DNA of 64,000 nt from Siniperca chuatsi. Lineage: Eukaryota > Chordata > Actinopteri > Centrarchiformes > Sinipercidae. The stretch is taken from NCBI RefSeq assembly GCF_020085105.1, contig NC_058051.1, positions 1,786,001-1,850,000 of the forward strand. Direction: 5' to 3'. The translations under genes were made by a program, and so were the position numbers. The notes under the pieces are model-generated. The model had not been told where the DNA came from. It made no database searches and saw nothing but the letters and a program-made list of their open reading frames with translations. Positions 26,886 through 56,916 of the stretch are shown one piece after another. The first letter of the stretch is position 1. The number at the start of each line of letters is the position of its first letter.

Positions 26886-28118
26886 GCAATACAATATGAA
26901 ATAGCAACAACAAATAAAATGAGCTTGGTTGTTAGAAGTGAGCTTTTCAGTAGCTAAAGCGTTAGCGTTGAAAAAAACTTTCCATCCTCCATCACGGACA
27001 CCAACAAAGCCATGGCCGAGTCGAGACCACTCTCCCTCCCATTGTTCGCTTGTTTATAGTCATATATTGCATCCATCTGTGAATGAGTGAAGGAACCATT
27101 GAAGCCTTGTAGTATACTAAAAAAGTACCAGGTACCAGGTAGTATCCACAACTTTTGCTAATGGAAACCAAAAGATCAGCTCTAAGTGAGTCGAGTCAAG
27201 TCAAGCCGTGCCATACTATGCAGTGGAAATGAGGCATATCTGTATTGTAGATGGGCCTGTGTCAAAATATACACTTTACGTATTGTTGAATACATTTGTG
27301 TTTTACAATATCACCACAAACAGGGTGTCATTAGGGGCCCACAGCTCATTTTTGCTCCAGGGCCCCATGTTGGGTTAATCAGGCCCTGACTGTAGTGATG
27401 GTGTGGCATCAGTACTGGAATCATTAAGCCAGACTGTCTTGAAGTGTTTGTAGTTAGATTTCAGCTGTCTGGAGCATAAACAAGTACATATAGAGGCTTG
27501 GTCCTGACTTCAGCACCTATAAATCTATTTGGTTACCTTGATGTCTGTGATAAAGTCATGCTGCACAAAGTGCTGTCTGCTCAGCAACATTACCACCACC
27601 AAAATATGTTTAGCCTATATACTATTAATTTGCACTGTTAGATATGTTTAGGAGGAAACACAATTGCTCTCTTTACTGTTTCTGCAGAGTAATCCCCGGC
27701 TGAAGGCATCTTGATTGTTTCTGCCCAAGATATTTCATTAACCAGTTTCCAACTCTGTCAGATGACCTCGTGTATTATCTGCATTATTATCTCTTCTCTG
27801 CCTCACTGGTCTCAATGTGGTTTTTGCTTACTCCAACCTCTACTGATGCCCTTACAGACAAATTATTTTGTATTATATTAATAGGTCTAATGTAGCTCAA
27901 ACTGCTGTATATACAGTACAGTAAACCATGCAAACACCTTACTTAATCATTTCATTTCAATTACATATAATAAGAATAACAAGTTGAGAAGTTTCTCATG
28001 CTTAAATATGAGGGACATTTATGTTAATGTTAATTGTGAGTTTTATTTAACACAACTGCCATCTTTCTCCTCATTAAACAACAAGTCGGTTTACCCACAT
28101 GATTTTCAAAATGTATTT

Positions 28119-28120
<2 letters not shown>

Positions 28121-28150
<30 letters not shown>
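28121..28150. repeat. (CA)n microsatellite, unit A
   Basis: 30 bp; orthologous in position to CA/GT tracts of different length downstream of each TAAR gene in the window. Confidence 0.95.
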
Positions 28151-28154
<4 letters not shown>

Positions 28155-28562
28155 CACTAAGTGTTCATATGAAACTGTTGCCCAGTTTACTGATAATCTC
28201 TGCCAGCAATAAAAGGCAGAAGAATCCCAGAGGTGTGTTTGTACAAAAATATGAAACAAACGTGGAGTAAATTCTGGTTAAGTTTGACTTTATTGACATT
28301 GGAATATTGGAAGGTAAATGTGTTTCCTTTCATTGTGGTGATTTTGATCATCATTGTGATTGATTATTCAAAGACCTTTCTGTAGCAGACAGAGAGAGAT
28401 TCTCCTGATCACAGAATCAATAACTGGAGTACAGTCTGTCCATGAATTGCAATGAAGAAAGATACAACAAAGATAATAACATAATTTTATATATATATCG
28501 TACAACATTAATAGAAGATAAGAGGCTCATGAGTCTCGTGTCAATCACTCCACAGTTTCTCT

Positions 28563-29769
28563 CTACAGTATGTTGGCCTGACAGGAGTGAGGCTGCAGTA
28601 TCTCAAGAGTAACAATGAGTCTAACAGATTTTCTAAACCAGGGGTAGAAAAAGGCGTAGATCACAGGGTTTAGACAGGAGTTAAAAATACCAGAAAAATC
28701 ATAAAGACTTCAGTTGAAGAACCGATCATGAGGTTGTAGCCTGAGAGAGAGACACAGTAAAATGGACAGTAACACATGAGAAACACAACAACAATGACAC
28801 CAAGAGTCCTGGCTGCTTTCATCTCAGATTTCTTAGCAGTTACAGTTGCTGAACGTTTCAATGCGACTGCTGCAATCTGGGAGCGCATGGCACGAGCCTG
28901 AGACACAGCCACCACAAACACTCTCACATACAGGGTGATGATGGCAGTGATGGGAATCACAAAGCCTAAAACAAGATCAACAACTCCTATTATGGTAATC
29001 ACACATTCTCCATAGCAGGACCTGTACATGCCTGGTTGTTTCAGGTTATCATATAAAAGCACAACGCTGTAGAAAACAGAGTAACCCCAACACAGGAAAA
29101 TGCAGATCTGAACTCTCTTTTGAGTGATTTTGGTGGGGTAGTGCAGAGGGTCACAGATAGCCACATAGCGGTCGACCGATATGAGCACCATGTTTACCAC
29201 TGAGGCGCAGATAGTGATAAAGGGTACAAAATAATACAGAACACACACCAGGTCACCCAGGAACCAGCAGGGCTCTGTTAGGAGGATTTGAAACGGCATC
29301 ACAAGGAGGCCCACGAGGAAGTCTGAGACAGCCAGAGAGAGGAGGAGGAGGTTGGTGGGGGTGTGGAGCTGCCTGGAGTGAGAGAATAACATCACTGTGA
29401 ATGTTACAAACACCAACAGCATTATCACCAATAGAAGTAGTTGTTTTATAAAAGCAGCAATGAAACTCCAGCATCTATATAGTAAATGTGGCTGTTTGAG
29501 CACTGATTATAAACAAAAGTCTCATAAAACCACCAGGATGTAATGCTCAGATCTCACTACAACAAAATACTATCAATGCTAAAACATTTATCTCTGCCTG
29601 AAGTGGGAGATGGAGATGATGACCAGCAGGTTGAGAGCCGCAGTGAGCAGCGAGATGGAGGACAGCAGAATGTAAATGAGCATTGCCTCAGAGTGAGGGC
29701 GTATGTGCTTCTTGCAGGAGGTGTTGAGGAGCTGTGGAAAACAGAGTTCATCTCCTCCAGGGTCTGCAT
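28563..29769 (-). pseudogene. TAAR copy A, two-exon receptor with two frame breaks
   Basis: Olfactory-type trace amine-associated receptor, a class A GPCR. Exon 1 is 29,598-29,769 and exon 2 is 28,563-29,372 on the minus strand. It is about 98% like the intact copies by eye, with DRY, PLHYPTK, PCWFLG and Asp5.42 (VVDLVLGF) present. Exon 1 is one base short near 29,753 (GGG to GG), which removes the ELCFPQLLNTSC N-terminus. Exon 2 is one base short near 28,684 (AAA to AA), which removes the NSCLNPxIY motif of TM7 and the tail. As written it cannot encode a receptor. Both losses are in homopolymers, so error in the assembly is possible. A poly(A) signal (TTTATT on the plus strand) lies at 28,289-28,294. 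It is head to head with copy B, with about 4.2 kb between start codons. Confidence 0.9.
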
Positions 29770-30650
29770 CATCAGAGAGAGAGGAGGAGAGGAGAAGCTG
29801 CTGAACAGCTTTCTCAGCAAAGTTCTGTGTCGTACAGCTGCTTTATCCCTCTCCTCATTCCCCTTCTCCCCTCCTCCTGTCTGTCAGTCTGTCTCTTGGA
29901 CACTGATCTTCCTCCTGCCTCACTCTATGCGTCATACTCCGCATCTGCATCATCATCATCAGTCTCTGGTGTAACAGGTAGCGTTTGTTTTGTTTTGGCT
30001 GATGCATGGACTCTAGTGACAACAGCATCAGTTATGGCATTTGGAACGAGATCGTGTAAAAAATGTCTCTAAGATTGTTCTTAAAAGACCAGCAGAATAA
30101 ACAGGAGCATCCTATACCATTACACATTGAACTGAAGCTGCTAATCAATATTTTTTAGTGCTGTCAATTTGCTGTGATTAATCGCAATAAATCACTTTTT
30201 TCTTCTTAATATTGAAGCTTTCAATAATGGATATTAAAATGTAAATTCACAGACTTAATGTAGAATCAATCATCAGAAGTATATTTAAATTCAAATACTA
30301 TTGTTTTATAGCATCTTTTTAACTTTGAACACAGATTCTCTCCTGTGAACTACAGATTTTCAATAAAACCATCGATATTTGTGCTTACATGCACAAATAT
30401 AAATGATTAAAGACTCTGATTCACACATGGAAGACACAGAGAGAGAGAGAGTTCAAATGGACCCTTTTCCCTTGCCAAAATTTTGCTCAACTTTGGAATA
30501 TTATTTAGCCCCCTTCCCAACAAGATAACATGACATGGGCCAGTCACAGCGCTCTCATCAACCTTGTTTTTGGCAGCAGCAGGTGAGGGTGTAGCACAAA
30601 ATTCTGGGCCCTATATATAAGTGTCATATGTCATTCCTGGTGTATAACAT

Positions 30651-32383
30651 CTGTCATATCTAATACAAGTACCGCAGGTTGAATCCTGTGTGGAATAACG
30701 ATGCTTTCTTGGCTAATGTTAATAGAAGCAGTAAAGAGTAGTTGCCCGATCAATAACCATATCCACAGCCACAGCTTCACCCTGCACAGCCAGACAGAGC
30801 AGCAATGGGGAATAAATGCATCATGCAAAGTGTCACATCATCTCTCCTTTCTGTCGAGCTTAACGCAAAAGTAGTTCAGAAAAAACATGTCCACCATGAC
30901 CCTTCGGGGGCTGTGTACCCACATGACACCTCTACATAACTACAAGGTCAAGCTTGTAAACTAACTGATTGGCTTGTCATACAGTGCGGTTATGTTAGTT
31001 TTTTGTAATTAGGCGGGGAGGGGGTTGTTATTTAAAGTAAGAAACAGTGACCCATTTGGACGGGCCTGGCCCCCTTACGGCCAAACGCTGTCCCCAGCTT
31101 TATACTGAGAGCAGTTTCTGATATTTTAGTCTACCCTCATTGATATAATTGGAGCGGACAAAATATTACAAACAGTTTCAACAAAAACTGGGAACTGTAT
31201 GTAAAACAGTGTAGCTGCTCCCATCAGAATGACAGGTAGCTCAGGCGTCCATGGTCCAGGCAGCACAGAAGGTCTCTGCCCCCTACTGGCATCAACAGGA
31301 ATTAGAGCACCTTTTTTAAATGTATATTATAGGCAAATATGAGCACTGCATCTAAATCCTGATTCTTGACTCTCACATTTTTACTCATTTTACTCACATT
31401 TCTGTTTGAGGAAAATACAGGTGAAATAATGCAAATAGCTTATTAAGGTTGGAAAGGTTAGAGTTCAGATGTCAGTCTCCCACTCGCAACTTCATAACCC
31501 ACCAACAGTGGAGGCAGACACACACACTGAAACACCAAGGCCATGGAAGGACCCGGCCTATCCCATGGGAAAGTTTGGGTCCAGGGTCTTACTCATGGAC
31601 ACATGGAGGACCTGCTCTTACTCTTTAGCTACCGCCACCTCCCAACAGACAGATGATTTTGGTGCATTCAGAGCCTTACCAGTAGTGAGGCTAAAATATT
31701 TATATACAGTATAAGTTCATATATAATGTTTGTCGTGAGGGTGGTGTCAGAGGAAAGGTGATGGGTTCATTGTGCTGAACTCATTTCATGACAATCTGCC
31801 TTTACAATATAGTAGTAATAAGGTTTCAACAAAGTCAAAGTTAAGCATGATAATAGATGTGGACATTGACCACTTCACTCTGATCAGTAGGGGCAGCCTA
31901 ACTTCTGTCCAAAGTCCAGATTGAAATGTAGAGGAACAACTTTTCTTGTGTTTGAATTCAAGTTAGCAGTGGCTTGTAGGAAACCACAAGAAGATCCAAT
32001 CGCCAAAAAACTGCTGTGCCGCTCAAAACATAGATAAACAAGTCTGACCAAGTTCTATAAAGATTGTACTGCATATTGTGCGACTTTATTATTTTATATG
32101 ACCATTAGTTAATTTTTTAGAAGTGCAGGTAGAAGTGTGGATTGGCTCTGATGCATTAAGGTCTAACAATCACTCAAGTTGAGTTGTAACACTGTCCTTG
32201 TGTTTCTGTGTTCCAGCTAATCTCTTAACCATGAACCCTAGATCACATGGTTGAGAAGGGGGCGATACAGTTGTTTTTTGTTCATTGGTCAGAGTAACTG
32301 CAGCCCTCAGGGCCAAAGTAGATCTGATTGGGTGCTGACAAGAAATGGACTGGCTGACAAGACAATTTAATTTAAAACATATT
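30651..32383. other. A/B spacer: no gene recognised
   Basis: Single-copy relative to the arms, but repeated almost unchanged as the E/F spacer (58,680-60,287). An 81-codon frame at 31,469-31,714 (+) is kept in both copies with only a few differences, which the recent duplication alone explains; it has no known motif. The region would hold the upstream regulatory DNA shared by the divergent TAAR pair. Confidence 0.6.
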
Positions 32384-32730
32384 TGTTATGGACAGAGAGG
32401 CAGGAGACACAGATATGGAAACAGATGTATGTTTATTAGATTACAGCCAGAGCAGACAGGTATGCAGGCTACGGAGACGGGGAATCCCGCTGGAGTGGAA
32501 TGAAGTGGCTACCACGCTGGAGTAGCATGGAGTAGGAACACGCTGGAGTACAATGTAGGAATCATGAAGACTCCCATGTGGAGTCCTTAGTTCAACGAGG
32601 TCGTACGACTGACAGAGGTGAGCGATGAGCCTTTTATCCTGGCTGTGATTAGGTGCTGATGGGGAACAGGAGTGTTATAGGAGCAGGTGTGTATGATCAA
32701 CTGATGGTGGAGCCTGGCGTATCCGTGACA
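32384..32730 (-). mobile_element. Solo LTR of a Gypsy-like retrotransposon (fossil)
   Basis: A 347-bp segment with TG...CA ends, inverted TGT/ACA termini and a TATA-like GATAAAAGGC on the minus strand. It is flanked by the 5-bp duplication ATATT (32,379-32,383 and 32,731-32,735). The equivalent site at 60,288-61,546 holds two LTRs around an internal piece, so this one is a solo LTR, probably left by LTR-LTR recombination. It has no coding capacity. Confidence 0.85.
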
Positions 32731-32735
32731 ATATT

Positions 32736-33154
32736 AGCTTACCTTGTTTTTTCAATGTGTTACTGTTAATGATGCATTCTGGTCAGATTGAATTCATTAT
32801 AAAAACAAGATTTGATCTTCAAAAAATCTCTTTCGAAAATGAAGAAAATAATGTTCTCTTCAGCATGATACTCCAAACAAATCTCATTTAACCACAGTAA
32901 AAGCATCACACAGTAATTGTAGGCTACAGTATGTTGAGAAAAGAGGGTTGAAATGTGGTGAGATTTGCAGCCTTGAGCACATATCACAGACTGTTATTAC
33001 TTGTTTAAATGTGGTATGAACAGTTCATTAGTGACTACCCTAATGACCACTACAGATTCAAATTGTACAGTTGTTGGCTCAATTATTTGTAAAAATGTTT
33101 CAAAAGATGCATCAGACACATGGATCAAGAGAAGAAGGGGGCCCACAGGGACTG
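32736..33154. other. A/B spacer, right part: no gene
   Basis: AT-rich DNA matching 61,552-61,950 in the E/F spacer. No coding signal is seen. Confidence 0.5.
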
Positions 33155-34009
33155 CTTATGTATAGGGCCCAGAATTTTGTGCTACACCCTCACCTGCTGC
33201 TGCCAAAAACAAGGTTGATGAGAGCGCTGTGACTGGCCCATGTCATGTTATCTTGTTGGGAAGGGGGCTAAATAATATTCCAAAGTTGAGCAAAATTTTG
33301 GCAAGGGAAAAGGGGTCCATTTGAACTCTCTCTCTCTCTGTGTCTTCCATGTGTGAATCAGAGTCTTTAATCATTTATATTTGTGCATGTAAGCACAAAT
33401 ATCTTGATGGTTTTATTGAAAATCTGTAGTTCACAGGAGAGAATCTGTGTTCAAAGTTAAAAAGATGCTATAAAACAATAGTATTTGAATTTAAATATAC
33501 TTCTGATGATTGATTCTACATTAAGTCTGTGAATTTACATTTTAATATCCATTATTGAAAGCTTCAATATTAAGAAGAAAAAAGTGATTTATTGCAATTA
33601 ATCACAGCAAATTGACAGCACTAAAAAATATTGATTAGCAGCTTCAGTTCAATGTGTAATGGTATAGGATGCTCCTGTTTATTCTGCTGGTCTTTTAAGA
33701 ACAATCTTAGAGACATTTTTACATGATCTCGTTCCAAAGGCCATAACTGATGCTGTTGTCACTAGAGTCCATGCATCAGCCAAAACAAAACAAACGCTAC
33801 CTGTTACACCAGAGAGTGATGATGATGATGCCGATGCGGAGTATGACGCATAGAGTGAGGCAGGAGGAAGATCAGTGTCCAAGAGACAGACTGACAGACA
33901 GGAGGGGAGGGAGAAGGGGAATGAGGAGAGGGATAAAGCAGCTGTACGACACAGAACTTTGCTGAGAAAGCTGTTCAGCAGCTTCTCCTCTCCTCCTCTC
34001 TCTCTGATG

Positions 34010-35218
34010 ATGCAGACCCTGGAGGGAGATGAACTCTGTTTTCCACAGCTCCTCAACACCTCCTGCAAGAAGCACATACGCCCTCACTCTGAGGCAATGC
34101 TCATTTACATTCTGCTGTCCTCCATCTCTCTGCTCACTGCGGCTCTCAACCTGCTGGTCATCATCTCCATCTCCCACTTCAGGCAGAGATAAATGTTTTA
34201 GCATTGATAGTATTTTGTTGTAGTGAGATCTGAGCATTACATCCTGGTGGTTTGATGAGACTTTTGTTTATAATCAGTGCTTAAACAGCCACATTTACTA
34301 TATAGATACTGGAGTTTCATTGCTGCTTTTATAAAACAACTACTTCTATTGGTGATAATGCTGTTGGTGTTTGTAACATTCACAGTGATGTTATTCTCTC
34401 ACTCCAGACAGCTCCACACCCCCACCAACCTCCTCCTCCTCTCTCTGGCTGTCTCAGACTTCCTCGTGGGCCTCCTTGTGATGCCGTTTCAAATCCTCCA
34501 AACAGAGCCCTGCTGGCTCCTGGGTGACCTGGTGTGTGTTCTGTATTATTTTGTACCCTTTATCACTATCTGCGCCTCAGTGGTAAACATGGTGCTCATA
34601 TCGGTCGACCGCTATGTGGCTATCTGTGACCCTCTGCACTACCCCACCAAAATCACTCAAAAGAGAGTTCAGATCTGCGTTTTCCTGTGTTGGGGTTACT
34701 CTGTTTTCTACAGCGTTGTGCTTTTATATGATAACCTGAAACAACCAGGCATGTACAGGTCCTGCTATGGAGAATGTGTGATTACCATAAAAGGAGCTGT
34801 TGACCTTGTTTTAAGCTTTGTGATTCCCATCACTGCCATCATCACCCTGTATGTGAGAGTGTTTGTGGTGGCTGTGTCTCAGGCTCGTGCCATGCGCTCC
34901 CAGATTGCAGCAGTCACATTGAAACGTTCAGCAACTGTAACTGCTAAGAAATCTGAGATGAAAGCAGCCAGGACTCTTGGTGTCGTTGTTGTTGTGTTTC
35001 TCATGTGTTACTGTCCATATTACTGTGTCTCTCTCTCAGGCTACAACCTCATGATCGGTTCTTCAACTGAAGTCTTTATGATTTTTCTGGTATTTTTAAA
35101 CTCCTGTCTAAACCCTGTGATCTACGCCTTTTTCTACCCCTGGTTTAGAAAATCTGTTAGACTCATTGTTACTCTTGAGATACTGCAGCCTCACTCCTGT
35201 CAGGCCAACATACTGTAG
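34010..35218 (+). CDS. TAAR copy B, intact two-exon receptor, 327 aa
   Basis: Trace amine-associated receptor, a Gs/Golf-coupled class A GPCR of the olfactory epithelium by family knowledge. Exon 1 is 34,010-34,182 and exon 2 is 34,408-35,218; the 225-bp intron has GC-AG ends. The join restores HF-R-QLHTPTN, the family consensus at the end of TM1. It has N-glycosylation site N16-T-S, D2.50 (D75), C3.25 (C101), DRY at 125-127, C181 in ECL2 and NSCLNPVIYAFFYPWF at 289-304, the TAAR TM7 fingerprint. Residue 3.32 is Pro108, not the amine-binding Asp. Asp190 sits at 5.42, and 6.48 is Tyr259. This is the teleost non-classical pattern. A preceding ATG at 34,007 would add one Met. Poly(A) signal AATAAA is at 35,486-35,491. 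The exact TAAR number is not assigned. Confidence 0.94.
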
Positions 35219-35627
35219 AGAGAAACTGTGGAGTGATTGACACGAGACTCATGAGCCTCTTATCTTCTATTAATGTTGTACGTATATATATAAAATGATG
35301 TTATTATCTTTGTTGTATCTTTCTTCATTGCAATTCATGGACAGACTGTACTCCAGTTATTGATTCTGTGATCAGGAGAATCTCTCTCTGTCTGCTACAG
35401 AAAGGTCTTTGAATAATCAATCACAATGATGATCAAAATCACCACAATGAAAGGAAACACATTTACCTTCCAATATTCCAATGTCAATAAAGTCAAACTT
35501 AACCAGAATTTACTCCACGTTTGTGTCATATTTTTGTACAAACACACCTCTGGGATTCTTCTGCCTTTTATTGCCGGCAGAGATTATCAGTAAACTGGGC
35601 AACAGTTTCATATGAACACTTAGTGGG

Positions 35628-35630
<3 letters not shown>

Positions 35631-35674
<44 letters not shown>
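35631..35674. repeat. (GT)n microsatellite, unit B
   Basis: 44 bp, the counterpart of the CA tracts in the inverted units. Confidence 0.95.
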
Positions 35675-35675
<1 letters not shown>

Positions 35676-36747
35676 TTAAAATACATTTTGAAAATCATGT
35701 GGGTAAACCCACTTGTTGTTTAATGAGGAGAAAGATGGCAGTTGTGTTAAATAAAACTCACAATTTTAACATTAACATAAATGTCCCTCATATTTAAGCA
35801 TGAGAAACTTCTCAACTTGTTATTCTTGTTATATGTAATTGAAATGATATGATTAAGTAAGGTGTTTGCATGGTTTACTGTACTGTATATACAGAGTTTG
35901 AGCTACATTACATCTATTAATATAATACAAATAATCTGTCTGTAAGGGCATCAGTAGAGGTTGGAGTAAGCAAAAACCACATTGAGACCAGTGAGGCAGA
36001 GAAGAGATAATAATGCAGATAATACACGAGGTCATCTGACAGAGTTGGAAACTGGTTAATGAAATATCTTGGGCAGAAACAATCAAGATGCCTTCAGCCG
36101 GGGATTACTCTGCAGAAACAGTAAAGAGAGCAATTGTGTTTCCTCCTAAACATATCTAACAGTGCAAATTAATAGTATATAGGCTAAACATATTTTGGTG
36201 GTGGTAATGTTGCTGAGCAGACAGCACTTTGTGCAGCATGACTTCATCACAGACATCAAGGTAACCAAATAGATTTATAGGTGCTGAAGTCAGGACCAAG
36301 CCTCTATATGTACTTGTTTATGCTCCAGACAGCTGAAATCTAACTACAAACACTTCAAGACAGTCTGGCTTAATGATTCCAGTACTGATGCCACACCATC
36401 ACTACAGTCAGGGCCTGATTAACCCAACATGGGGCCCTAGAGCAGAAATGAGCTGTGGGCCCCTAATGACACCCTGTTTGTGGTGATATTGTAAAACACA
36501 AATGTATTCAACAATACGTACAGTGTATATTTTGACACAGGCCCATCTACAATACAGATATGCCTCATTTCCACTGCATAGTATGGCACGGCTTGACTTG
36601 ACTCGACTCGCTTGGAGCTGATCTTTTGGTTTCCATTAGCAAAAGTTGTGGATACTACCTGGTACCTGGTACTTATTTAGTATACTACAAGGCTTCAATG
36701 GTTCCTTCACTCATTCATTCTTATTCACTTGACACAGATTTTAAATA

Positions 36748-36970
36748 ATGGCAGGCCACAAAACCACGCCATGGTCAGTTGACAAAGTGCAGACGTTCCT
36801 CTGTTTGGTTGAGGATGAAAGGATCCAGCGAGAACTGGATGGAGAGGGTCTACCAAGAAGTCTCTCAACTGTTGGCCGCACAAGATTACCAAAGGACATT
36901 CCAACAGTGTAGGGAAGAGTTAAAAAACTTAAAAGTGATTACAGAACTGTCAAGGACTGCAACGTTCGGA
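36748..36970 (+). pseudogene. Harbinger Myb/SANT-like ORF remnant, unit B
   Basis: From ATG at 36,748 it reads MAGHKTTPWSVDKVQTFLCL, VEDERIQRELDGEGLPRSLS, then a small indel near 36,875 breaks the frame. The remaining YQRTFQQCREELKNLK lies in another frame. The W...F...Q...L...K pattern is that of the trihelix/Myb-like partner protein encoded by PIF/Harbinger transposons. Confidence 0.7.
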
Positions 36971-37179
36971 GTGGTCAGACCAGATGGACGTAATATATGG
37001 CTATAGACAAGCGAACAATGGGAGGGAGAGTGGCTTTGACTCGGCCATGGCCTTGTTGGTGTCCATGATGGAGGATGGAAAGTTTTTTTCAACGCTAACG
37101 CTTTACTCTAGCTACTGAAAAGCTCACTTCTAATAACCAAGCTCATTTTAGTTGTTGTTGCTATTTCATATTGTATTGC

Positions 37180-37799
37180 TAGGGGTGTCGCGATTCTCCA
37201 CATCCACAATTTGATTTGACTTGAAGGTCAAAACAATTTTCAGCACTGACAGCTATGCCATTGTTAGACTATCAAGTCTTGATTTCTTCTTCTTTAAAAA
37301 GACAGGCTACATGGCATCAAGTGTGATACAACCACCATGTATATTTCTTTGGAATGTACCACACTAAGGACATATGGTCAAATTTAAATAATTTATTTAA
37401 AATGTAATAACAATAACTGATTTCACCAGTCACGTGGGAACAAACTGTACACACAAAAACAAAAACAAGAGTCACTAGATGGTAGAAGGGTACTTTACAA
37501 CAACATCTTGAGTTTTCTCGCCTGCAAAAAACCACCAAGGTTAGAATTTCTAATGTCCTGGCATATTTGTGGTGTTGCCTGAGGTGGCGTATGGTACCCG
37601 CGTGTAGCATATTCTACAAACTGTAGTTTTTCTGTCAACGATGCGCATTTACATAACTCACGATGACGGCAAAATGTTGCCACACCGGTGACTTCAGGGA
37701 AGCAGGAGGATTTTTCAGTTCTGTTGTTTCTCCGAAGGTCGAAATCGAAAGCTCATTTCGATCAATTTTCGATTTAGAATCACACTTGTGACACCCCTA
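37180..37799. mobile_element. Non-autonomous hAT element, unit B
   Basis: Inverted counterpart of the unit A element, with the same TAGGGGTGTC ends, 620 bp. Confidence 0.85.
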
Positions 37800-38015
37800 T
37801 GTGTTGCAGTAGTTTGTGTATTTAACAAGTCATTTGTATAACCTTTCTGTTCAAGATTCCGTTTCAATAAGCAAGGAGGGTTCAATAATGACTCCTTTCC
37901 TTAGCGATGGCAGTTCTCTGACGAGTTTCCCGTTCAGCAGCACAACATCAATACCAGAACCAGCACCAGCACTGACAACCTCCAGTGCCAACACAGCATG
38001 GTACATTGGTTGTTC

Positions 38016-38261
38016 TCAGACTTGCTTCCACAGTGCGATGGCCAATGTCTTCTTTAGAGGTGCACACCAGGCTAAGTTTGTGTCCTGTCTCTCCATCACT
38101 GGATGCAGTTTGTTGCACAGGTAGATTAATGTTTCTTCCGATATTCTGATGTTCTGCACCCACTGAGTGTTTGTGAAGCTGGGAACATTCACATCCACTG
38201 GCGCCGGAAGTAGGAAGGCCAAGGGGCCATTGGCCCTCGCACTTTTTCCCCCGTCCCACAT
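38016..38261 (-). pseudogene. PIF/Harbinger transposase N-terminal remnant, unit B
   Basis: 81 codons with RISEETLIYLCNKLHPVMER and DTNLAWCAPLKKTLAIALWK. It retains the two codons missing in units A and C. No DDE domain. Confidence 0.8.
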
Positions 38262-38615
38262 TCTTCAACACTGAGCAGTACAACAGTAACTGTAAAAAGA
38301 CTTTTCAATCATTCCCATCCACTCTAAGACATTAGTTAAAATAAAGCAGGCAAAGAAAACAGGAAGAATATTTCAATTTCACAGTTTAAATTTAATACTT
38401 CAAGAAGCTGCTTCAAAATGCTACAGTGTACATGCTGCCTTCAGTTTAGTTCATGACATACATGAAATAATCAATAACTCACCAAAACAACTTGCCATCT
38501 ATGACACCATCAGGTCTGCCTCTCCTGTCATACCCATCATCAGTTACCTCAAACCACTCTGCCCCACTTGCTGGACAGCCTGAACCAGTGCAATAAAATC
38601 ATTACTTGATGAATG

Positions 38616-39214
38616 AATGAATGATGAATGCAGACGCACGCATGTGTTCAATTCTTGTGCTGCTGGACTTAAGTGCTGCCTTTGACACAATTGATCATGA
38701 CATTCTTCTAGATAGACTGAGGCACTGGGTGGGCATATCTGGCACTGCAATAAACTGGTTCTCATCTGTGTCAGCATTAATAACTTCATGTCATCCTTTT
38801 CCCAAATCAATTATGGTATGCCTCAAGGTTCAGTTCTGGGACCATTACTGTTCGACCAATATGCTCCCCTTGATGTCATCCGCAGACATGGGATTTCATT
38901 TCATTGTTATGCAGATGTCACACAGTGGTAACTCCTGTCAAGCCCACTGACCTCAGTACGCTGAGTTCTGCCTGTCTGACATAAAAAACGGGATGTCGAT
39001 ACATTTTCTTCAGCTCAACTCAAATCAAACAGAAATATTGCAAAAATCTGATCTATTTTAAAGTTTAGTGGTGCAGAAACTGTTGTGCATGCTTTTATCT
39101 CCTCACGCCTTGATTATTGTAACAGTCTGTTCACTTGTCTTAATCCAAAAACTTTGAAATGACTGCATACTGTACAGAACTCAGCTGCTAGGCTGTTAAC
39201 CAGGACCAAGAGGT
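38616..39214 (+). mobile_element. L2-like LINE fragment at palindrome 1 axis, left
   Basis: Encodes [20 protein letters not shown] and [20 protein letters not shown] (the palm block of the reverse transcriptase), then degraded [10 protein letters not shown]-like and C-terminal (SSRLDYCNSLFTCLNPKTL) parts with frame changes. It faces the copy at 39,266-40,045. Confidence 0.85.
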
Positions 39215-39265
39215 ACAATCACATCACACCTGATTTTAAGATCTTATTGATCACATTTAAGGTTC

Positions 39266-40045
39266 ACCTCTTGGTCCTGGTTAACAGCCTAGCAGCTGAA
39301 TTCTGTACAGTCTGCAGTCGTTTCAAAGTTTTTTGATTAAGACAAGTGAACAGACTGTTACAATAATCAAGGCGTGAGGAGATAAAAGCATGCACAACAG
39401 TTTCTGCACCACTAAACTTTAAAATAGATCAGGTTTTTGCAATATTTCTGAGATGATAAAAACATGATTGGACAAGCTTAGTGATAAGTTGCTCAAAACA
39501 TAAATTGTTATCAAAAAGGACACTAAGATTTCTTGCAACAGGCTTGATATGTTGTGACAGGTAGCCAGTAGATGGCAGTATTTGTTTAGTGATGTGTTGG
39601 GCCCAATAACAAGGATTTCTGTTTGATTTGAGTTGAGCTGAAGAAAATTTATCAACATCTAGTTTTTTATGTCAGACAGGCAGTCCTGCAGAGAACTCAG
39701 CGTACTGAGGTCAGTGGGCTTGACAGGGAGGTACAACTGCGTGTCATCCGCATAACAATGAAATGAAATACCATGTCTGCGGATGACATCAAGGGGAGCA
39801 TATATAAGGAGAACAGTATTGGTTCCAGAACTGAACCTTGAGGCACACCATAATTGATTTGGGAAAAGGATGACATGAAGTTATTAATGCTGACACAGAT
39901 GAGAACCAGTTTATTGCAGTGCCAGATATGCCCACCCAGTGCCTCAGTCTATCTAGAAGAATGTCATGATCAATTGTGTCAAAGGCAGCACTTAAGTCCA
40001 GCAGCACAAGAATTGAACACATGTGTGCGTCTGCATTCATTATTC
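39266..40045 (-). mobile_element. L2-like LINE fragment at palindrome 1 axis, right
   Basis: Inverted counterpart of the left fragment, somewhat longer because it keeps a stretch around 39,440-39,720 (HLLATCHNISSLLQEI, FLQLNSNQTEILVIGP) that is reduced on the left. Reverse transcriptase palm block at 39,900-40,040. Inactive. Confidence 0.85.
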
Positions 40046-40381
40046 ATTCACTGGTTCAGGCTGTCCAGCAAGTGGGGCAGAGTGGTTTGAGGTAACTGAT
40101 GATGGGTGTGACAGGAGAGGCGGAGCTGATGGTGTTATAGATGGCAAGTCGTTTTGGTGAGTTATTGATTATTTCATGTATGTCATGAACTAAACTGAAG
40201 GCACCACGTACAATGTTGCACTTTGAAGCAGCTTCTTGAAGTATTAAATTTAAACTGTGATAACAATTTGAATATTCTTCCTGTTTTCTTTGCCTGCTTT
40301 ATTTTAACTAATGTCTTATAATGGATGGGAATGAATGAAAAGTCTTTTTACAGTTACTGTTGTACTGCTCAGTATTGAAGA

Positions 40382-40621
40382 ATGTGGGACGGGGGAAAAA
40401 GTGCGAGGGCCAATGGCCCCTTGGCCTTTCTACTTCCGGCGCCAGTGGATGTGATTGTTCCCAGCTTCACAAACACTCAGTGGGTGCAGAACATCAGAAT
40501 ATCCGAAGAAACATTAATCTACCTGTGCAACAAACTGCATCCAGTGATGGAGAGACAGGACACAAACTGGTGTGCACCTCTAAAGAAGACATTGGCCATT
40601 GCACTGTGGAAGCAAGTCTGA
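40382..40621 (+). pseudogene. PIF/Harbinger transposase N-terminal remnant, unit C
   Basis: 79 codons, same content as unit A including the shared 6-bp deletion. No catalytic domain. Confidence 0.8.
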
Positions 40622-40837
40622 GAACAACCAATGTACCATGCTGTGTTGGCACTGGAGGTTGTCAGTGCTGGTGCTGGTTCTGGTATTGATGTTGCTGCTG
40701 GAACAGGAAACTCGTCAGGAGAACTGCCATCGCTAAGGGAAGGGGTCATTGTTGAACCCTCCTTGTTTATTGAAACAGAATCTTGAACAGAAAGGTTATA
40801 CAAATGACTTGTTAAATACACAAACTACTGCAACACA

Positions 40838-41458
40838 TAGGGGTGTCACAAGTGTGATTCTAAATCGAAAATTGATCGAAATGAGCTTGTGATTTCGACC
40901 TTCGGAGAAACAACAGAACTGGAAAATCCTCCTGCTTCCCTGAAGTCAACGGTGTGGCAACATTTTGCCGTCATCGTGAGTTATGTAAATGCGCATCGTT
41001 GACAGAAAAACTACAGTTTGTAGAATATGCTGCGCGCTGGTACCATACGCCACCTCAGGCAACACCACAAATATGGCAGGACATTAGAAATTCTAACCTT
41101 GGTGGTTTTTTGCAGGTGAGGAAACTCAAGCTGTTGTTGTAAAGTACCCTTCTGCCATCTAGTGACTCTTCTTTTTTGTTTTTGTGTGTACAGTTTGTTC
41201 CCACTTGACTGGTGAAATCAGTTATTGTTATTACATTTTAAATAAATTATTAAAATTTGACCATATGGCCTTAGTATGGTACATTCCAAAGAAATATATA
41301 TGGCGGTTGTATCACACTTGATACCATGTAGCCTGTCTTTTTAAAGAAGAAGAAATCAAGACTTGATAGTCTAACAATGGCATAGCTGTCAGTGCTGAAA
41401 ATTGTTTTGACCTTCAAGTCAAATCAAATTGTGGATGTGGAGAATCGCGACACCCCTA
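40838..41458. mobile_element. Non-autonomous hAT element, unit C
   Basis: TAGGGGTGTC ends; flanking 8-mers GCAACACA and GCAATACA as in unit A; 621 bp. An identical insertion point shows it predates the duplications. Confidence 0.85.
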
Positions 41459-41579
41459 GCAATACAATATGAAATAGCAACAACAAATAAAATGAGCTTG
41501 GTTATTAGGAGTGAGCTTTTCAGTAGCTAGAGAACAGCATTAGCATATATAGCCATATATTGCGTCCATCTGGTCTGAC

Positions 41580-41803
41580 CACTCCAACCGTTGCAGTCCT
41601 TGACAGTTCTGTAATCACTTTTAAGTTTTTTAACTCTTCCCTACACTGTTGGAATGTCCTTTGGTAAACTTGTGCGGCCAACAGTTGAGAGACTTCTTGG
41701 TAGACCCTCTCCATCCAGTTCTCGCTGGATCCTTTCATCCTCAACCAAACAGAGGAACGTCTGCACTTTGTCAACTGACCATGGCGTGCTTTTGTGGGCT
41801 GCC
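41580..41803 (-). pseudogene. Harbinger Myb/SANT-like ORF remnant, unit C
   Basis: The minus strand from the ATG near 41,803 encodes MAAHKSTPWSVDKVQTFLCL and the following trihelix-like stretch, with a frame change in the middle as in unit B. Unit A has lost this segment by a deletion at about 27,078. Confidence 0.65.
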
Positions 41804-42878
41804 ATTATTTAAAATCTGTGTCAAGTGAATAAGAATGAATGAGTGAAGGAACCATTGAAGCCTTGTAGTATACTAAAAAAGTACCATGTACCAGGTAGTA
41901 TCCACAACTTTTGCTAATGGAAACCAAAAGATCAGCTCCAAGCGAGTCGAGTCAAGTCAAGCCGTGCCATACTATGCAGTGGAAATGAGGCATATCTGTA
42001 TTGTAGATGGGCCTGTGTCAAAATATACACTGTACGTATTGTTGAATACATTTGTGTTTTACAATATCACCACAAACAGGGTGTCATTAGGGGCCCACAG
42101 CTCATTTCTGCTCTAGGGCCCCATGGTGGGTTAATCAGGCCCTGACTGTAGTGATGGTGTGGCATCAGTACTGGAATCATTAAGCCAGACTGTCTTGAAG
42201 TGTTTGTAGTTAGATTTCAGCTGTCTGGAGCATAAACAAGTACATATAGAGGCTTGGTCCTGACTTCAGCACCTATAAATCTATTTGGTTACCTTGATGT
42301 CTGTGATGAAGTCATGCTGCACAAAGTGCTGTCTGCTCAGCAACATTACCACCACCAAAATATGTTTAGTCTATATACTATTAATTTGCACTGTTAGATA
42401 TGTTTAGGAGGAAACACAATTGCTCTCTTTACTGTTTCTGCAGAGTAATCCCCGGCTGAAGGCATCTTGATTGTTTCTGCCCAAGATATTTCATTAACCA
42501 GTTTCCAACTCTGTCAGATGACCTCGTGTATTATCTGCATTATTATCTCTTCTCTGCCTCACTGGTCTCAATGTGGTTTTTGCTTACTCCAACCTCTACT
42601 GATGCCCTTACAGACAGATTATTTGTATTATATTAATAGGTCTAATGTAGCTCAAACTCTGTATATACAGTACAGTATACCATGCAAACACCTTACTTAA
42701 TCATTTCATTTCAATTACATATAATAAGAATAACAAGTTGAGAAGTTTCTCATGCTTAAATATGAGGGACATTTATGTTAATGTTAAAATTGTGAGTTTT
42801 ATTTAACACAACTGCCATCTTTCTCCTCATTATACAACAAGTGGGTTTACCCACATGATTTTCAAAATGTATTTTAAC

Positions 42879-42896
42879 CACACACACACACACACA
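42879..42896. repeat. (CA)n microsatellite, unit C
   Basis: Only 18 bp, much shorter than in B or E. Confidence 0.95.
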
Positions 42897-43308
42897 AAAC
42901 CCACTAAGTGTTCATATGAAACTGTTGCCCAGTTTACTGATAATCTCTGCCGGCAATAAAAGGCAGAAGAATCCCAGAGGTGTGTTTGTGCAAAAATATG
43001 ACACAAACGTGGAGTAAATTCTGGTTAAGTTTGACTTTATTGACATTGGAATATTGGAAGGTAAATGTGTTTCCTTTCATTGTGGTGATTTTGATCATCA
43101 TTGTGATTGATTATTCAAAGACCTTTCTGTAGCAGACAGAGAGAGATTCTCCTGATCACAGAATCAATAACTGGAGTACAGTCTGTCCATGAATTGCAAT
43201 GAAGAAAGATACAACAAAGATAATAACATCATTTTATATATATACGTACAACATTAATAGAAGATAAGAGGCTCGTGAGTCTCGTGTCAATCACTCCACA
43301 GTTTCTCT

Positions 43309-44516
43309 CTACAGTATGTTGGCCTGACAGGAGTGAGGCTGCAGTATCTCAAGTGTAACAATGAGTCTAACAGATTTTCTAAACCAGGGGTAGAAAAAGG
43401 CGTAGATCATAGGGTTTAGACAGGAGTTAAAAAATATCAGAAAAATCATAAAGACTTCAGTTGAAGAACCGATCATGAGGTTGTAGCCTGAGAGAGAGAC
43501 ACAGTAATATGGACAGTAACACATGAGAAACACAACAACAATGACACCAAGAGTCCTGGCTGCTTTCATCTCAGATTTCTTAGCAGTTACAGTTGCTGAA
43601 CGTTTCAATGCGACTGCTGCATTGTGGGAGCGCATGGCACGAGCCTGAGACACAGCCACCACAAACACTCTCACATACAGGGTGATGATGGCAGTGATGG
43701 GAATCACAAAGCCTAAAACAAGATCAACAACTCCTATTATGGTAATCACACATTCTCCATAGCAGGACCTGTACATGCCTGGTTGTTTCAGGTTATCATA
43801 TAAAAGCACAACGCTGTAGAAAACAGAGTAACCCCAACACAGGAAAATGCAGATCTGAACTCTCTTTGAGTGATTTTGGTGGGGTAGTGCAGAGGGTCAC
43901 AGATAGCCACATAGCGGTCGACCGATATGAGCACCATGTTTACCACTGAGGCGCAGATAGTGATAAAGGGTACAAAATAATACAGAACACACACCAGGTC
44001 ACCCAGGAACCAGCAGGGCTCTGTTAGGAGGATTTGAAACGGCATCACAAGGAGGCCCACGAGGAAGACTGAGACAGCCAGAGAGAGGAGGAGGAGGTTG
44101 GTGGGGGTGTGGAGCTGCCTGGAGTGAGAGAATAACATCACTGTGAATGTTACAAACACCAACAGCATTATCACCAATAGAAGTAGTTGTTTTATAAAAG
44201 CAGCAATGAAACTCCAATATCTATATAGTAAATGTGGCTGTTTGAGCACTGATTATAAACAAAAGTCTCATCAAACCACCAGGATGTAATGCTCAGATCT
44301 CACTACAACAAAATACTATCAATGCTAAAACATTTATCTCTGCCTGAAGTGGGAGATGGAGATGATGACCAGCAGGTTGAGAGCCGCAGTGAGCAGCGAG
44401 ATGGAGGACAGCAGAATGTAAATGAGCATTGCCTCAGAGTGAGGGCGTATGTGCTTCTTGCAGGAGGTGTTGAGGAGCTGTGGAAAACAGAGTTCATCTC
44501 CCTCCAGGGTCTGCAT
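43309..44516 (-). pseudogene. TAAR copy C, one frame break and D2.50 changed to Val
   Basis: Exon 1 is 44,344-44,516 (intact) and exon 2 is 43,309-44,118 on the minus strand. Exon 2 is one base short near 43,866 (AAAA to AAA) just after PLHYPTKITQ in the second intracellular loop, so everything from TM4 on is out of frame. Before it, the nearly invariant sodium-site Asp2.50 is Val (SLAVSVFLVG). Downstream sequence keeps Asp5.42, C-Y-C-P in TM6 and NSCLNPMIY. Probable pseudogene; the Val change suggests real decay rather than sequencing error. Poly(A) signal (TTTATT on the plus strand) at 43,036-43,041. Tail to tail with copy B in palindrome 1. Confidence 0.9.
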
Positions 44517-45399
44517 CATCAGAGAGAGAGGAGGAGAGGAGAAGCTGCTGAACAGCTTTCTCAGCAAAGTTCTGTGTCGTACAGCTGCTTTATCCCTCTC
44601 CTCATTCCCCCTTCTCCCTCCCCTCCTGTCTGTCAGTCTGTCTCTTGGACACTGATCTTCCTCCTGCCTCACTCTATGCGTCATACTCCGCATCTGCATC
44701 ATCATCATCAGTCTCTGGTGTAACAGGTAGCGTTTGTTTTGTTTTGGCTGATGCATGGACTCTAGTGACAACAGCATCAGTTATGGCATTTGGAACGAGA
44801 TCGTGTAAAAAATGTCTCTAAGATTGTTCTTAAAAGACCAGCAGAATAAACAGGAGCATCCTATACCATTACACATTGAACTGAAGCTGCTAATCAATAT
44901 TTTTTAGTGCTGTCAATTTGCTGTGATTAATCGCAATAAATCACTTTTTTCTTCTTAATATTGAAGCTTTCAATAATGGATATTAAAATGTAAATTCACA
45001 GACTTAATGTAGAATCAATCATCGGAAGTATATTTAAATTCAAATACTATTGTTTTATAGCATCTTTTTAACTTTGAACACAGATTCTCTCCTGTGAACT
45101 ACAGATTTTCAATAAAACCATCGATATTTGTGCTTACATGCACAAATATAAATGATTAAAGACTCTGATTCACACATGGAAGACACAGAGAGAGAGAGAG
45201 TTCAAATGGACCCCTTTTCCCTTGCCAAAATTTTGCTCAACTTTGGAATATTATTTAGCCCCATTCCCAACAAGATAACATGACATGGGCCAGTCACAGC
45301 GCTCTCATCAACCTTGTTTTTGGCAGCAGCAGGTGAGGGTGTAGCACAAAATTCTGGGCCCTATATATAAGTGTCATATGTCATTCCTGGTGTATAACA

Positions 45400-45950: not shown

Positions 45951-46734
45951 AAATGTTTACAGAGGATCAGACAGGGTGATGAAGTCAGCCACTCAGGATT
46001 TCTCCAAGTGAAAGGAAGAGGGCTGGAGATCGAAGATGAAGGAACATTGGACGAGAAAGGGCCGGCAAGCACCAGGAGACCCAGAAGAACGTTCCGGGGG
46101 AGGAAGTTGAGCTGAGTGGAGCAACAGCTGGCACCGGATATGAAATGGAGAGCTGCTGGTTTTGGTCATGAATGGAAAGTTAGAGACTAGTTGATGTATA
46201 ATGGAGCATTAGCAGCATGCAGGTGCAATGTCATAGCAAAGTGTGTATTGCATAACGAATGTGTGTGAGTGTGAGTGTGTGTGTGAATGGGTGGGTGGGG
46301 TTATTGCTCACAGGGGTTTACAGCTTATTTCTGCTGCTTACAAGTGGTTATTGCAGGTTTAAGGGGGATCCTGGATTATTACCTGTTTTGCCTAAGCGTT
46401 ATTTCCACTGAATTGGATGGCTTAGCTGGACTTGACTCGCTTTTGGTACCAGGTGCTTTTCTCAATGTGATCAAGGGCGCCGGATTCATTTCAGAAGTGT
46501 GGGAGCCAAAAAGTTTGTGAGTGTGTGTGTCTGTGTGTAGCGGTAGATCAAATGGAGACTTGACATGAACAAGTACAAATTCACACGATATGTCAAAACG
46601 TGTGTGTTGACTGGTTGGTTCCCAAATAGGTTTTGCCAAGGGGCGCCAGCAAGTGTCCAACTATGAAACCGTCATTTCACTTAGAAATTAAGTTGCAGCA
46701 GCACATCAGCTGGTCCACTCTCATAAAGAATTTA
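45951..46734. other. C/D spacer: no gene; Harbinger-type MITE remnant near 46,385
   Basis: The stretch 46,385-46,470 contains TTATTTCCACTGAATTGGAT and GACTTGACTCGCTTTTGGTA, matching the terminal region of the Harbinger elements elsewhere in the array (for example 36,545-36,680). The rest is unassigned. Confidence 0.5.
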
Positions 46735-47573
46735 ATAATAATAAACTTTGTTTTGTTAAGTGCTCTATAAATAAAGTACAGAGTTCTTCACAGAGAGAGA
46801 AAAAATACCACAGTGAATGATAAAATACATAAAAACCAATAAAATAAACAGACAGCTCAGGTAAAATCAGGATATGCTTTCTGATAAAAATGCATTTTGA
46901 GAAGAGACTTAAAAGAAGACACTGACTCAGACAACCTAATTTCATGGGGCAAGTTGTTCCAGATGGCAAAAGCTCTGTCCCCCTTAGTTTTCATCCTGGA
47001 CTCAGGAAGAGACAGAAGACCCCTGCCTGAAGATCTCAAACTATGTGAAGGTTCATAAGGGATTACAAGGTCTAAAATATAGCCTGGAGCCAGGCCATGA
47101 AGAACCTTAAATGTGATCAATAAGATCTTAAAATCAGGTGTGATGTGATTGTACCTCTTGGTCCTGGTTAACAGCCTAGCAGCTGAGTTCTGTACAGTCT
47201 GCAGTCGTTTCAAGTTTTTGGATTAAGACAAGTGAACAGACTGTTACAATAATCAAGGCGTGAGGAGATAAGAGCATGCACAACAGTTTCTGCACCACTA
47301 AACTTTCTAATAGATCAGATTTTTGCAATATTTCTGAGATGATAAAAACATGATTGGACAAGCTTAGTGATAAGTTGCTCAAAACATAAATTGTTATCAA
47401 ACGGGACACCAAGATTTCTTGCAACAGGCTTGATATGTTGTGACAGGTAGCCAGTAGATGGCAGTATTTGTTTAGTGATGTGTTGGGCCCAGTAACAAGG
47501 ATTTCAGTTTTTTTTTAGTTGAGCTGAAGAAAATGTATCGACATCCAGTTTTTTATGTCAGACAGGCAGAAAG
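46735..47573 (-). mobile_element. L2-like LINE, C-terminal end
   Basis: The minus strand encodes RLQTVQNSAARLLTRTKRYN, then FKVLHGLAPGYILDLVIPYE, SGRGLLSLPESRMKTKGDRA and FAIWNNLPHEIRLSESVSSF with a stop near 46,857, the true C-terminus of fish L2 elements. A deletion of the HWLP region follows HITP. The fragment abuts the truncated upstream edge of TAAR unit D at about 47,574. Confidence 0.85.
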
Positions 47574-47868
47574 GCATTTTTTACACGATCTCGTTCCAAA
47601 GGCCATAACTGATGCTGTTGTCACTAGAGTCCATGCATCAGCCAAAACAAAACAAACGCTACCTGTTACACCAGAGAGTGATGATGATGCCGATGCGGAG
47701 TATGACGCATAGAGTGAGGCAGGAGGAAGATCAGTGTCCAAGAGACAGACTGACAGACAGGAGGGGAGGGAGAAGGGGGAATGAGGAGAGGGATAAAGCA
47801 GCTGTACGACACAGAACGTTGCTTAGAAAGCTGTTCAGCAGCTTCTCCTCTCTCTCCTCTCTCTGATG

Positions 47869-49077
47869 ATGCAGACCCTGGAGGGAGATGAACTCTGTTT
47901 TCCACAGCTCCTCAACACCTCCTGCAAGAAGCACATACGCCCTCACTCTGAGGCAATGCTCATTTACATTCTGCTGTCCTCCATCTCGCTGCTCACTGTG
48001 GCTCTCAACCTGCTGGTCATCATCTCCATCTCCCACTTCAGGCAGAGATAAATGTTTTAGCATTGATAGTATTTTGTTGTAGTGAGATCTGAGCATTACA
48101 TCCTGGTGGTTTGAAGAGACTTTTGTTTATAATCAGTGCTTAAACAGCCACATTTACTATATAGATACTGGAGTTTCATTGCTGCTTTTATAAAACAACT
48201 ACTTCTATTGGTGATAATGCTGTTGGTGTTTGTAACATTCACAGTGATGTTATTCTCTCACTCCAGACAGCTCCACACCCCCACCAACCTCATCCTCCTC
48301 TCTCTGGCTGTCTCAGACTTCCTCGTGGGCCTCCTTGTGATGCCGTTTCAAATCCTCCTATCAGAGCCCTGCTGGCTCCTGGGTGACCTGGTGTGTGTTC
48401 TGTATTATTTTGTACCCTTTATCACTATCTGCGCCTCAGTGGTAAACATGGTGCTCATATCGGTCGACCGCTATGTGGCTATCTGTGACCCTCTGCACTA
48501 CCCCACCAAAATCACTCAAAAGAGAGTTCAGATCTGCATTTTCCTGTGTTGGGGTTACTCTGTTTTCTACAGCGTTGTGCTTTTATATGATAACCTGAAA
48601 CAACCAGGCATGTACAGGTCCTGCTATGGAGAATGTGTGATTACCATAATAGGAGCTGTTGATCTTGTTTTAAGCTTTGTGATTCCCATCACTGCCATCA
48701 TCACCCTGTATGTGAGAGTGTTTGTGGTGGCTGTGTCTCAAGCTCGTGCCATGCGCTCCCAGATTGCAGCAGTCACATTGAAACGTTCAGCAACTGTAAC
48801 TGCTAAGAAATCTGAGATGAAAGCAGCCAGGACTCTTGGTGTCATTGTTGTTGTGTTTCTCATGTGTTACTGTCCATTTTACTGTGTCTCTCTCACAGGC
48901 TACAACCTCGTGACCGGTTCTTCAAGTGAGGTCTTTATGATTTTTCTGATATTTTGTAACTCCTGTCTAAACCCTGTGATCTACGCCTTTTTCTACCCCT
49001 GGTTTAGAAAATCTGTTAGACTCATTGTTACACTTGAGATACTGCAGCCTCACTCCTGTCAGGCCAACATACTGTAG
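47869..49077 (+). CDS. TAAR copy D, intact two-exon receptor, 327 aa
   Basis: Exon 1 is 47,869-48,041 and exon 2 is 48,267-49,077; 225-bp GC-AG intron. All receptor landmarks described for copy B are present, including Pro3.32, Asp5.42, Tyr6.48, DRY and NSCLNPVIYAFFYPWF. It is the most divergent copy near the TM6-TM7 turn (SLTGYNLVTGSSSEV, FLIFCNSC), a region that lines the ligand entrance in class A receptors. Only about 295 bp of the conserved upstream DNA remains before an L2 LINE, so its regulation may differ from A, B, C and F. Poly(A) signal AATAAA at 49,347-49,352. Confidence 0.94.
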
Positions 49078-49495
49078 AAAGAAACTGTGGAGTGATTGAC
49101 ACGAGACTCATGAGCCTCTTATCTTTTATTAATGTTGTACGCAAATATATATAAAATGATGTTATTATCTTTGTTGTATCTTTCTTCATTGCAATTCATG
49201 GACAGACTGTACTCCAGTTATTGATTCTGTGATCAGGAGAATCTCTCTCTGTCTGCTACAGAAAGGTCTTTGAATAATCAATCACAATGATGATCAAAAT
49301 CACAACAATGAAAGGAAACATATTTACTTCCTAATATTCCAATGTCAATAAAGTCAAACTTAACCAGAATTTACTCCACGTTTGTTTCATATTTTTGCAC
49401 AAACACACCTCTGGGATTCTTCTGCCTTTTATTGCCGGCAGAGATTATCAGTAAACTGGGCAACAGTTTCATATGAACACTTAGTGGGTTTTTTT

Positions 49496-49509
49496 GTGTG
49501 TGTGTGTGG
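49496..49509. repeat. (GT)n microsatellite, unit D
   Basis: 14 bp, the shortest version. Confidence 0.9.
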
Positions 49510-50560
49510 TTAAAATACATTTTGAAAATCATGTGGGTAAACCCACTTGTTGTATAATGAGGAGAAAGATGGCAGTTGTGTTAAATAAAACTAACAATTT
49601 TAACATTAACTTAAATGTCCCTCATATTTAAGTATGAGAAACTTCTCTACTTGGTATTCTTATTATATGTAATTGAAATGAAATGATTAAGTAAGGTGTT
49701 TGCATGGTTTACTGTACTGTATATATAGCTATTAATATAATACAAATAATCTGTCTGTAAGGGCATCAGTAGAGGTTGGAGTAAGCAAAAACCACATTGA
49801 GACCAGTGAGGCAGAGAGGAGATAATAATGCAGATAATACACGAGGTCATCTGAGTTGGAAACTGGTTAATGAAAATCTTGGGCAGAGACAATCAAGATG
49901 CCTTCAGCCGGGATTACTCTGCAGAAACAGTAAAGAGAACAATTGTGTTTCCTCCTAAACATATCTAACAAATATCTGCAAATTAATAGTATATAGACTA
50001 AACATATTTTGGTGGTGTAATGTTGCTGAGCAGACAGCACTTTGTGCAGCATGACTTCATCACAGACAGCAAGGTAACCAAATAGATTTATAGGTGCTGA
50101 AGTCAGGACCAAGCCTCTATATGTACTTGTTTATGCTCCAGACAGCTGAAATCTAACTACAAACACTTCGAGACAGTCTGGCTTAATGATTCCAGTACTG
50201 ATGCCACACCATCACTACAGTCAGGGCCTGATTAACCCAACATGGGGTCCTAGAGCAGAAATGAGCTGTGGGCCCCTAATGACACCCTGTTTGTGGTGAT
50301 ATTGTAAAACACAAATGTATTCAACAATACGTACAGTGTATATTTTGACACAGGCCCATCTACAATACAGATATGCCTCATTTCCACTGCATAGTATGGC
50401 ACGGCTTGACTTGACTCGACTCGCTTGGAGCTGATCTTTTGGTTTCCATTAGCAAAAGTTGTGGATACTACCTGGTACCTGGTACTTTTTTAGTATACTA
50501 CAAGGCTTCAGTGGTTCCTTCACTCATTCATTCTTATTCACTTGACCCAGATTTTAAATA

Positions 50561-50791: not shown

Positions 50792-51024
50792 ACCAGATGG
50801 ATGCAATATATGGCTATAAACAAGCGAACAATGGGAGGGAGAGTGGCGCTAACGCTAACTCTGTTCTCTAGCTACTGAAAAGCTCACTTCTAACAACCAA
50901 GCTCATTTTACTCTTAAACATGTGTAACATCCACATGGCGATGACAACTGCTTATGGAGCACTGGTGAGCTAGTTAGCTAGTTCAGTTTACTAGAGTTGT
51001 TGATGCTATTTCGTATTGTGTTGT

Positions 51025-53043: not shown

Positions 53044-53044
53044 G

Positions 53045-56851: not shown

Positions 56852-56852
<1 letters not shown>

Positions 56853-56912: not shown

Positions 56913-56916
<4 letters not shown>

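Follow-up and report, generated by a model that had tools for sequence, protein, structure and literature searches.

The 64,000-nucleotide stretch of Siniperca chuatsi DNA analyzed here (RefSeq assembly GCF_020085105.1, contig NC_058051.1, positions 1,786,001 to 1,850,000 of the forward strand; hereafter the window) contains a 12-kb palindrome that carries two TAAR loci tail to tail and is itself one tail-to-tail joint of a longer array, in which six copies of a two-exon TAAR gene (A to F) follow one another in alternating orientation from 25.4 kb to the window end. We hold with moderate confidence that this array arose through amplification of an inverted dimer with trimmed centers. All DNA comparisons cover the 64-kb window, and proteins were compared with PDB and Pfam; the coordinates of the features are collected in Table 1.

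Both self-BLAST and an end-to-end alignment find the palindrome at the position given by the original prediction, with a spacer of 51 bp. Aligned end to end, the arms are identical at 5790 of 5913 aligned bases (97.9%) and differ at the other 123 (2.1% overall, up to 5.3% per 300 bp), the largest indels between them being 25, 26, 85 and 171 bp. Identity per 300-bp bin is 97.3-99.7% across 33155-36754 and 94.7-98.6% across 36755-39214. Self-BLAST aligns 41548-45371 with 37005-33155 (98.0% over 3853 columns) and 39615-41544 with 39036-37094 (93.7%), and identifies a self-inverted core at 39030-39450 (91.1%). Complementarity is perfect for 34 bp where the arms adjoin the spacer. Folded as single-stranded DNA, the 421-bp core reaches -217.7 kcal/mol, compared with -42.2 on average (sd 4.2) among 100 shuffled sequences; this inverted structure far exceeds chance expectation. 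The arms had also been described as carrying L2, Harbinger and hAT segments. Of these labels, L2 corresponds to a weak RVT_1 match (E=0.0064) and Harbinger to a weak Myb/SANT-like match only (E=1.9e-4), both under the Pfam cut-off, while hAT was not confirmed; in the Pfam search of the short arm frames, no family was found for five of the seven. Apart from the RVT_1 match, the name L2 is an assumption, and we write of an L2-like element below.

An obvious concern with such a structure, raised in the original prediction, is that it is a fold-back or chimeric read artefact, in which a single strand is read forward and then back. Long arms around a short spacer are typical of such artefacts, yet this explanation is highly improbable here, because the arms diverge, by the substitutions and several indels given above, and the flanks outside 33155 and 45399 are unlike one another. 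In addition, unit A matches unit C at 98.5% over 3577 columns, on par with the match between the arms, the arms are not closest relatives throughout (see below), and the spacer occurs un-inverted in a separate fragment of the window (X). The same unlike flanks also stand against an assembly misjoin in which two haplotypes, or collapsed copies, were put together facing opposite ways, as do the inner arms, which differ at 81/2057 sites, and the alternation, which is repeated at four other joints. Although the outer-arm divergence of 1.1% is within fish heterozygosity, we regard such a misjoin as unlikely. It would be favored by the kind of sequence in which salmon TAARs lie, described as complex, repetitive and hard to map (PMC4065256).

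The TAAR open reading frames (ORFs) match Pfam 7tm_1. Copies B, D and E each keep an open frame of 328 amino acids (aa), and TAAR F is open over 948 of the 987 bases compared in the window; TAAR A carries two 1-bp deletions, and TAAR C one 1-bp deletion and Val at Asp2.50. The two TAAR loci in the palindrome do converge tail to tail, as predicted, with gene ends at 35218 and 43309 and ~8 kb between them, but the right-arm locus is frameshifted. The predicted exon 1, 225 bp upstream of exon 2, contributes the N-terminus and TM1 (TM denoting transmembrane segments). Compared with PDB, copy B has its best matches in entries named TAAR13 (E 1.6e-56 to 1e-54), which we take to be zebrafish structures. 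TAARs or TAAR1 fusions fill the first 15 places among 108 PDB sequences (E 1.6e-56 to 2.5e-35), and the next match, among the best 60 of 108, is an alpha-1A adrenergic fusion (E 2.3e-33). The TM7 signature NSX2NPX2[Y/H]X3YXWF, which defines TAAR receptors (PMC4786312), is present in all six copies. All six also have Asp5.42 together with Pro3.32, Asp3.32 being lost (these positions are numbered with the Arg of DRY and the Pro of TM5 as reference points). Clade III TAARs are described as having Asp5.42 present and Asp3.32 absent and as binding amines through TM5, and the teleost members likewise form clusters of duplicates (PMC4695389); by these residues, the genes resemble non-classical TAARs of clade III. 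Among B, D, E and F, the ratio of nonsynonymous to synonymous change (dN/dS) is 0.7-1.2 on few differing codons (13-22 per pair), and it is therefore no demonstration of purifying selection since duplication. All six copies share a TM6 motif, CYCP[YF], with Tyr at 6.48, where the usual TAAR residue is Trp. In unit E, the exon-2 frame (57306-58268) runs 34 codons further upstream than the B or D ORF, into the intron, and there encodes a hydrophobic stretch.

The predicted intron has GC at its donor in all six copies and lies within the first intracellular loop where a Phe is followed by an Arg, in codon 59 from the first ATG. Read as GC-AG, it splits the Arg codon (AG before the intron, A after it); because AG flanks both sides, the spliced message is unchanged by the choice of intron phase. 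Family A TAARs of cichlid, stickleback, medaka and fugu are described as having two exons, with a loop-1 intron at a Phe-Arg pair near codon 55 that is called phase 0 (PMC4415300), in contrast to the split Arg codon here. As the loop and the Phe-Arg place are the same, the predicted intron is probably the one known from cichlid and other fish TAARs. Zebrafish (PMC4415300) and salmon (PMC4065256) TAARs are reported as single-exon genes, whereas two coding exons with a GC donor are predicted here. Eleven of the final 13 bases of the intron are the same as those that close exon 1 (shuffle p 0.0009), a likeness that could be a relic of intron gain via exon-edge duplication or a pyrimidine-tract coincidence.

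Beyond the palindrome, the window holds four more units, including a second inverted pair, which the original prediction does not mention. All five adjacent pairs in the array are non-parallel, in contrast to the neighboring tandem gene pairs of 11 vertebrates, 72-94% of which are reported to be parallel (PMC2547482). At 28% non-parallel, the upper value, five of five has p ~0.002 if the pairs are assumed to be independent, an assumption that fails if a dimer was copied. The two head-to-head linkers, A/B and E/F, have five pieces in common at 92-98% identity, and the C/D head joint, which is different, contains sequence without a match in the window as well as fragment X.

Fragment X is L2-like sequence in right-arm orientation that extends, without inversion, past both the palindrome axis and the second axis, which sits near 52.98 kb. 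Its positions 236-470 match 39030-39265 at 97.5%. Measured along X, the B/C axis reaches position 470 and reverses from 419, and the D/E axis reaches ~378 and reverses from 521; the four breakpoints fall inside ~145 bp of one L2-like element. Read by eye, the junctions have no overlap at B/C and 2 bp at D/E. As the B/C junction shows no microhomology by eye, priming by fold-back or template switching at this spacer was dropped as an origin. Short inverted repeats at spacer edges are the mark of origin-dependent inverted-repeat amplification; inspection by eye revealed none at the B/C junction, where centre trimming could have erased them. X abuts unit D at its outer end (position 47572), an arrangement that points to a unit since lost or to a direct repeat of greater age.

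Judged from the aligned copies, arms B and C do not behave as sisters from end to end. Among 59 five-way sites (A-E all present, two-versus-three split), none unites B+C, the splits being DE 11, AC 8, AD 8, BE 7, BD 7, CE 6, CD 5, AB 4 and AE 3; this gives p ~0.002 if the ten pairs are equally likely and the sites independent, a rough guide only. Unit D aligns poorly at ~37055-37404, 37605, 37905 and from 38605 on (B coordinates), and once the five sites in these stretches are removed, B+C is united by none of the remaining 54. D, which is more diverged there, was excluded from the pair comparisons of the inner region. In 1456 inner columns shared by A, B, C and E, no pair of these four copies differs more than B-C, which has 54 differences compared with 40-52 for the other pairs and is closest in 6/2000 bootstraps; in the 2057 inner columns that B, C and E share, B-C comes out closest in 41/2000. 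In 3510 outer columns, A-B differ at 42 sites, A-C at 34 and B-C at 40, and B-C is the closest pair of A, B and C in 356/2000 bootstraps. Of 31 four-way sites in A, B, C and E, 16 favor A+C and 11 favor A+B.

The resemblance among copies also changes along the sequence. B and C differ at 40/3510 sites in the outer part (1.1%) and at 81/2057 in the inner part (3.9%; p=2e-11), while B-E shows no such rise (61/1424 in 35219-36716 versus 70/2057 inner sites, p=0.20). Compared with shuffled site order, the compatibility of neighboring sites gives evidence of a patchwork (p=0.0015 for the 59 sites, p=0.006 for the 54, p=0.0065 for A, B, C and E, and p=0.044 for the inner part). Together with the similarity that A, B and C share over their outer 3.5 kb, these patterns support exchange among copies, across orientations too. 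As the outer part is common to all three copies and B is inverted relative to A and C, at least one transfer across orientation would have occurred, unless the likeness dates from the duplication itself. The original prediction had noted that such structures promote gene conversion from arm to arm; exchange among copies, inverted ones included, is supported, and exchange particular to arms B and C is not supported by these comparisons. The corresponding explanation, a palindrome like those of the Y chromosome with arms kept alike through frequent arm-to-arm gene conversion, would account for the lower B-C divergence in the outer part. We nevertheless consider it rather improbable, given that A is equally alike in the outer part, that in the inner part B-C differs more than any other pair of A, B, C and E, and that the TAAR C frameshift has not been overwritten from B.

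The explanation we favor, inverted-dimer amplification, starts from what is directly observed in the window: the array with its alternating copies, two inverted axes that break at different points of one L2-like element, fragment X, a mix of open and frameshifted genes, and patchwork similarity. A TAAR gene would have been duplicated in inverted orientation, and the inverted dimer would then have been amplified, giving alternating copies and recurring joint types. Both axes may descend from one longer palindrome, the centre of which was presumably trimmed by asymmetric end-joining deletions, and this trimming may have given stability enough for persistence. Non-allelic gene conversion across direct and inverted copies would then have made A, B and C alike over their outer 3.5 kb. 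The palindrome itself would be without function, its payload being olfactory-type amine-receptor genes under birth and death. Related processes have been described, with palindromes as unstable precursors whose spacers grow through secondary rearrangement (PMC10766186), and asymmetric deletion taking away the central symmetry of inverted tandem genes (PMC2547482).

Several observations weigh against inverted-dimer amplification. The C/D head joint differs in type from the A/B joint, and the different breakpoints of the two axes make two separate inversions into the same element possible. The order of events is not fixed, because only six units are available and one of them is truncated where the window stops. 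The patchwork test does not reach significance when restricted to 33700-36716 (p=0.20), nor for all six copies in 33700-35170 (p=0.15). In 35219-36716, B and C differ at 12/1424 sites, compared with 61 and 56 for the other pairs, and are the closest of B, C and E in 2000/2000 bootstraps, a closeness that conversion or a recent sister origin of that part would give. One two-base variant (adjacent bases) in the 185-bp core groups B+C against E and X, and four of the 31 four-way sites fit B+C. The closeness in 35219-36716 and the core variant speak in particular for a single recent inverted duplication, with B and C as direct sister arms independent of the other copies; the five-way sites and the inner bootstraps argue against it, as does the outer similarity, which extends to A, and we assign it a low probability.

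Table 1. Features of the palindrome and of the TAAR array, in window coordinates
Feature	Position	Strand	Remarks
Unit A	25485..30649	-	contains TAAR A 28563-29772, two 1-bp deletions
Head-to-head linker A/B	30648..33154	.	pieces match 58686-60528 and 61193-61995 at 92-98%
Left arm (unit B)	33155..39214	+	pairs in inverted orientation with 39266-45371 (97.9% identity over aligned bases)
TAAR B exon 1 (predicted)	34007..34182	+	precedes GC donor; joined to exon 2 gives open 328-aa frame
TAAR B intron (predicted)	34183..34407	+	225 bp, GC-AG; same edges in 6/6 copies, length 224-225
TAAR B exon 2, open	34408..35218	+	7tm_1 E=1.6e-44 for ORF 34358-35215
Spacer, 51 bp	39215..39265	.	continues L2-like sequence of left arm; un-inverted copy in X
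Right arm (unit C)	39266..45371	-	self-BLAST and end-to-end alignment
TAAR C pseudogene	43309..44519	-	1-bp deletion in exon 2; Asp2.50 to Val
Fragment X	46601..47571	.	un-inverted L2-like end; reveals sequence past the axis in a copy not inverted there
Unit D	47572..52982	+	contains open TAAR D 47866-49077
Second inverted joint D/E	52983..53146	.	spacer ~163 bp; right edge approximate, overlaps unit E
Unit E	53104..58685	-	contains open TAAR E 57306-58516
Head-to-head linker E/F	58686..61949	.	homologous in pieces to linker A/B
Unit F	61950..64000	+	contains TAAR F 62828-64000, open up to window end

Three further observations were made elsewhere in the window. At 60392-60928, tandem repeats of 27 and 36 bp overlap a 198-aa ORF (60556-61152, minus strand) without a Pfam match. 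A 364-aa ORF at 15807-16901 contains a cysteine-rich, zinc-knuckle-like stretch and is gag-like by eye, also without a Pfam match. Outside the array, self-BLAST shows a 435-bp direct repeat with 99.3% identity at 2955-3389 and 17182-17616.

The array is known in kind and uncommon in layout. Mammalian Y palindromes have gene-carrying inverted arms, as here; the arms here are shorter and more diverged than those of the Y chromosome, and they are not mutual closest relatives throughout. The inverted gene pairs and eroded palindromes described earlier (PMC10766186, PMC2547482) are similar in their inverted copies, little or no junction homology, and centre deletions that remove symmetry. Among the literature matches listed, which cover the literature in part, no palindromic TAAR array is described in the titles or in the abstract openings. 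TAAR repertoires are reported to range from 12 to 109 genes across ten fishes (PMC4415300), and gene counts in clusters of this kind hinge on correct assembly of near-spacerless joints. We put forward as a tentative proposal, somewhat short of an even chance, that this chemoreceptor cluster grew by inverted-dimer amplification and not by ordinary direct tandem duplication, and that the window keeps successive stages of the process in fragment X, the two trimmed axes and the conversion across orientations. If an inverted dimer did drive the cluster, copy number would change by a route that yields genes in alternation, joints prone to instability and exchange across strands, and palindrome decay in a vertebrate germ line could be measured from the stages that have been preserved.

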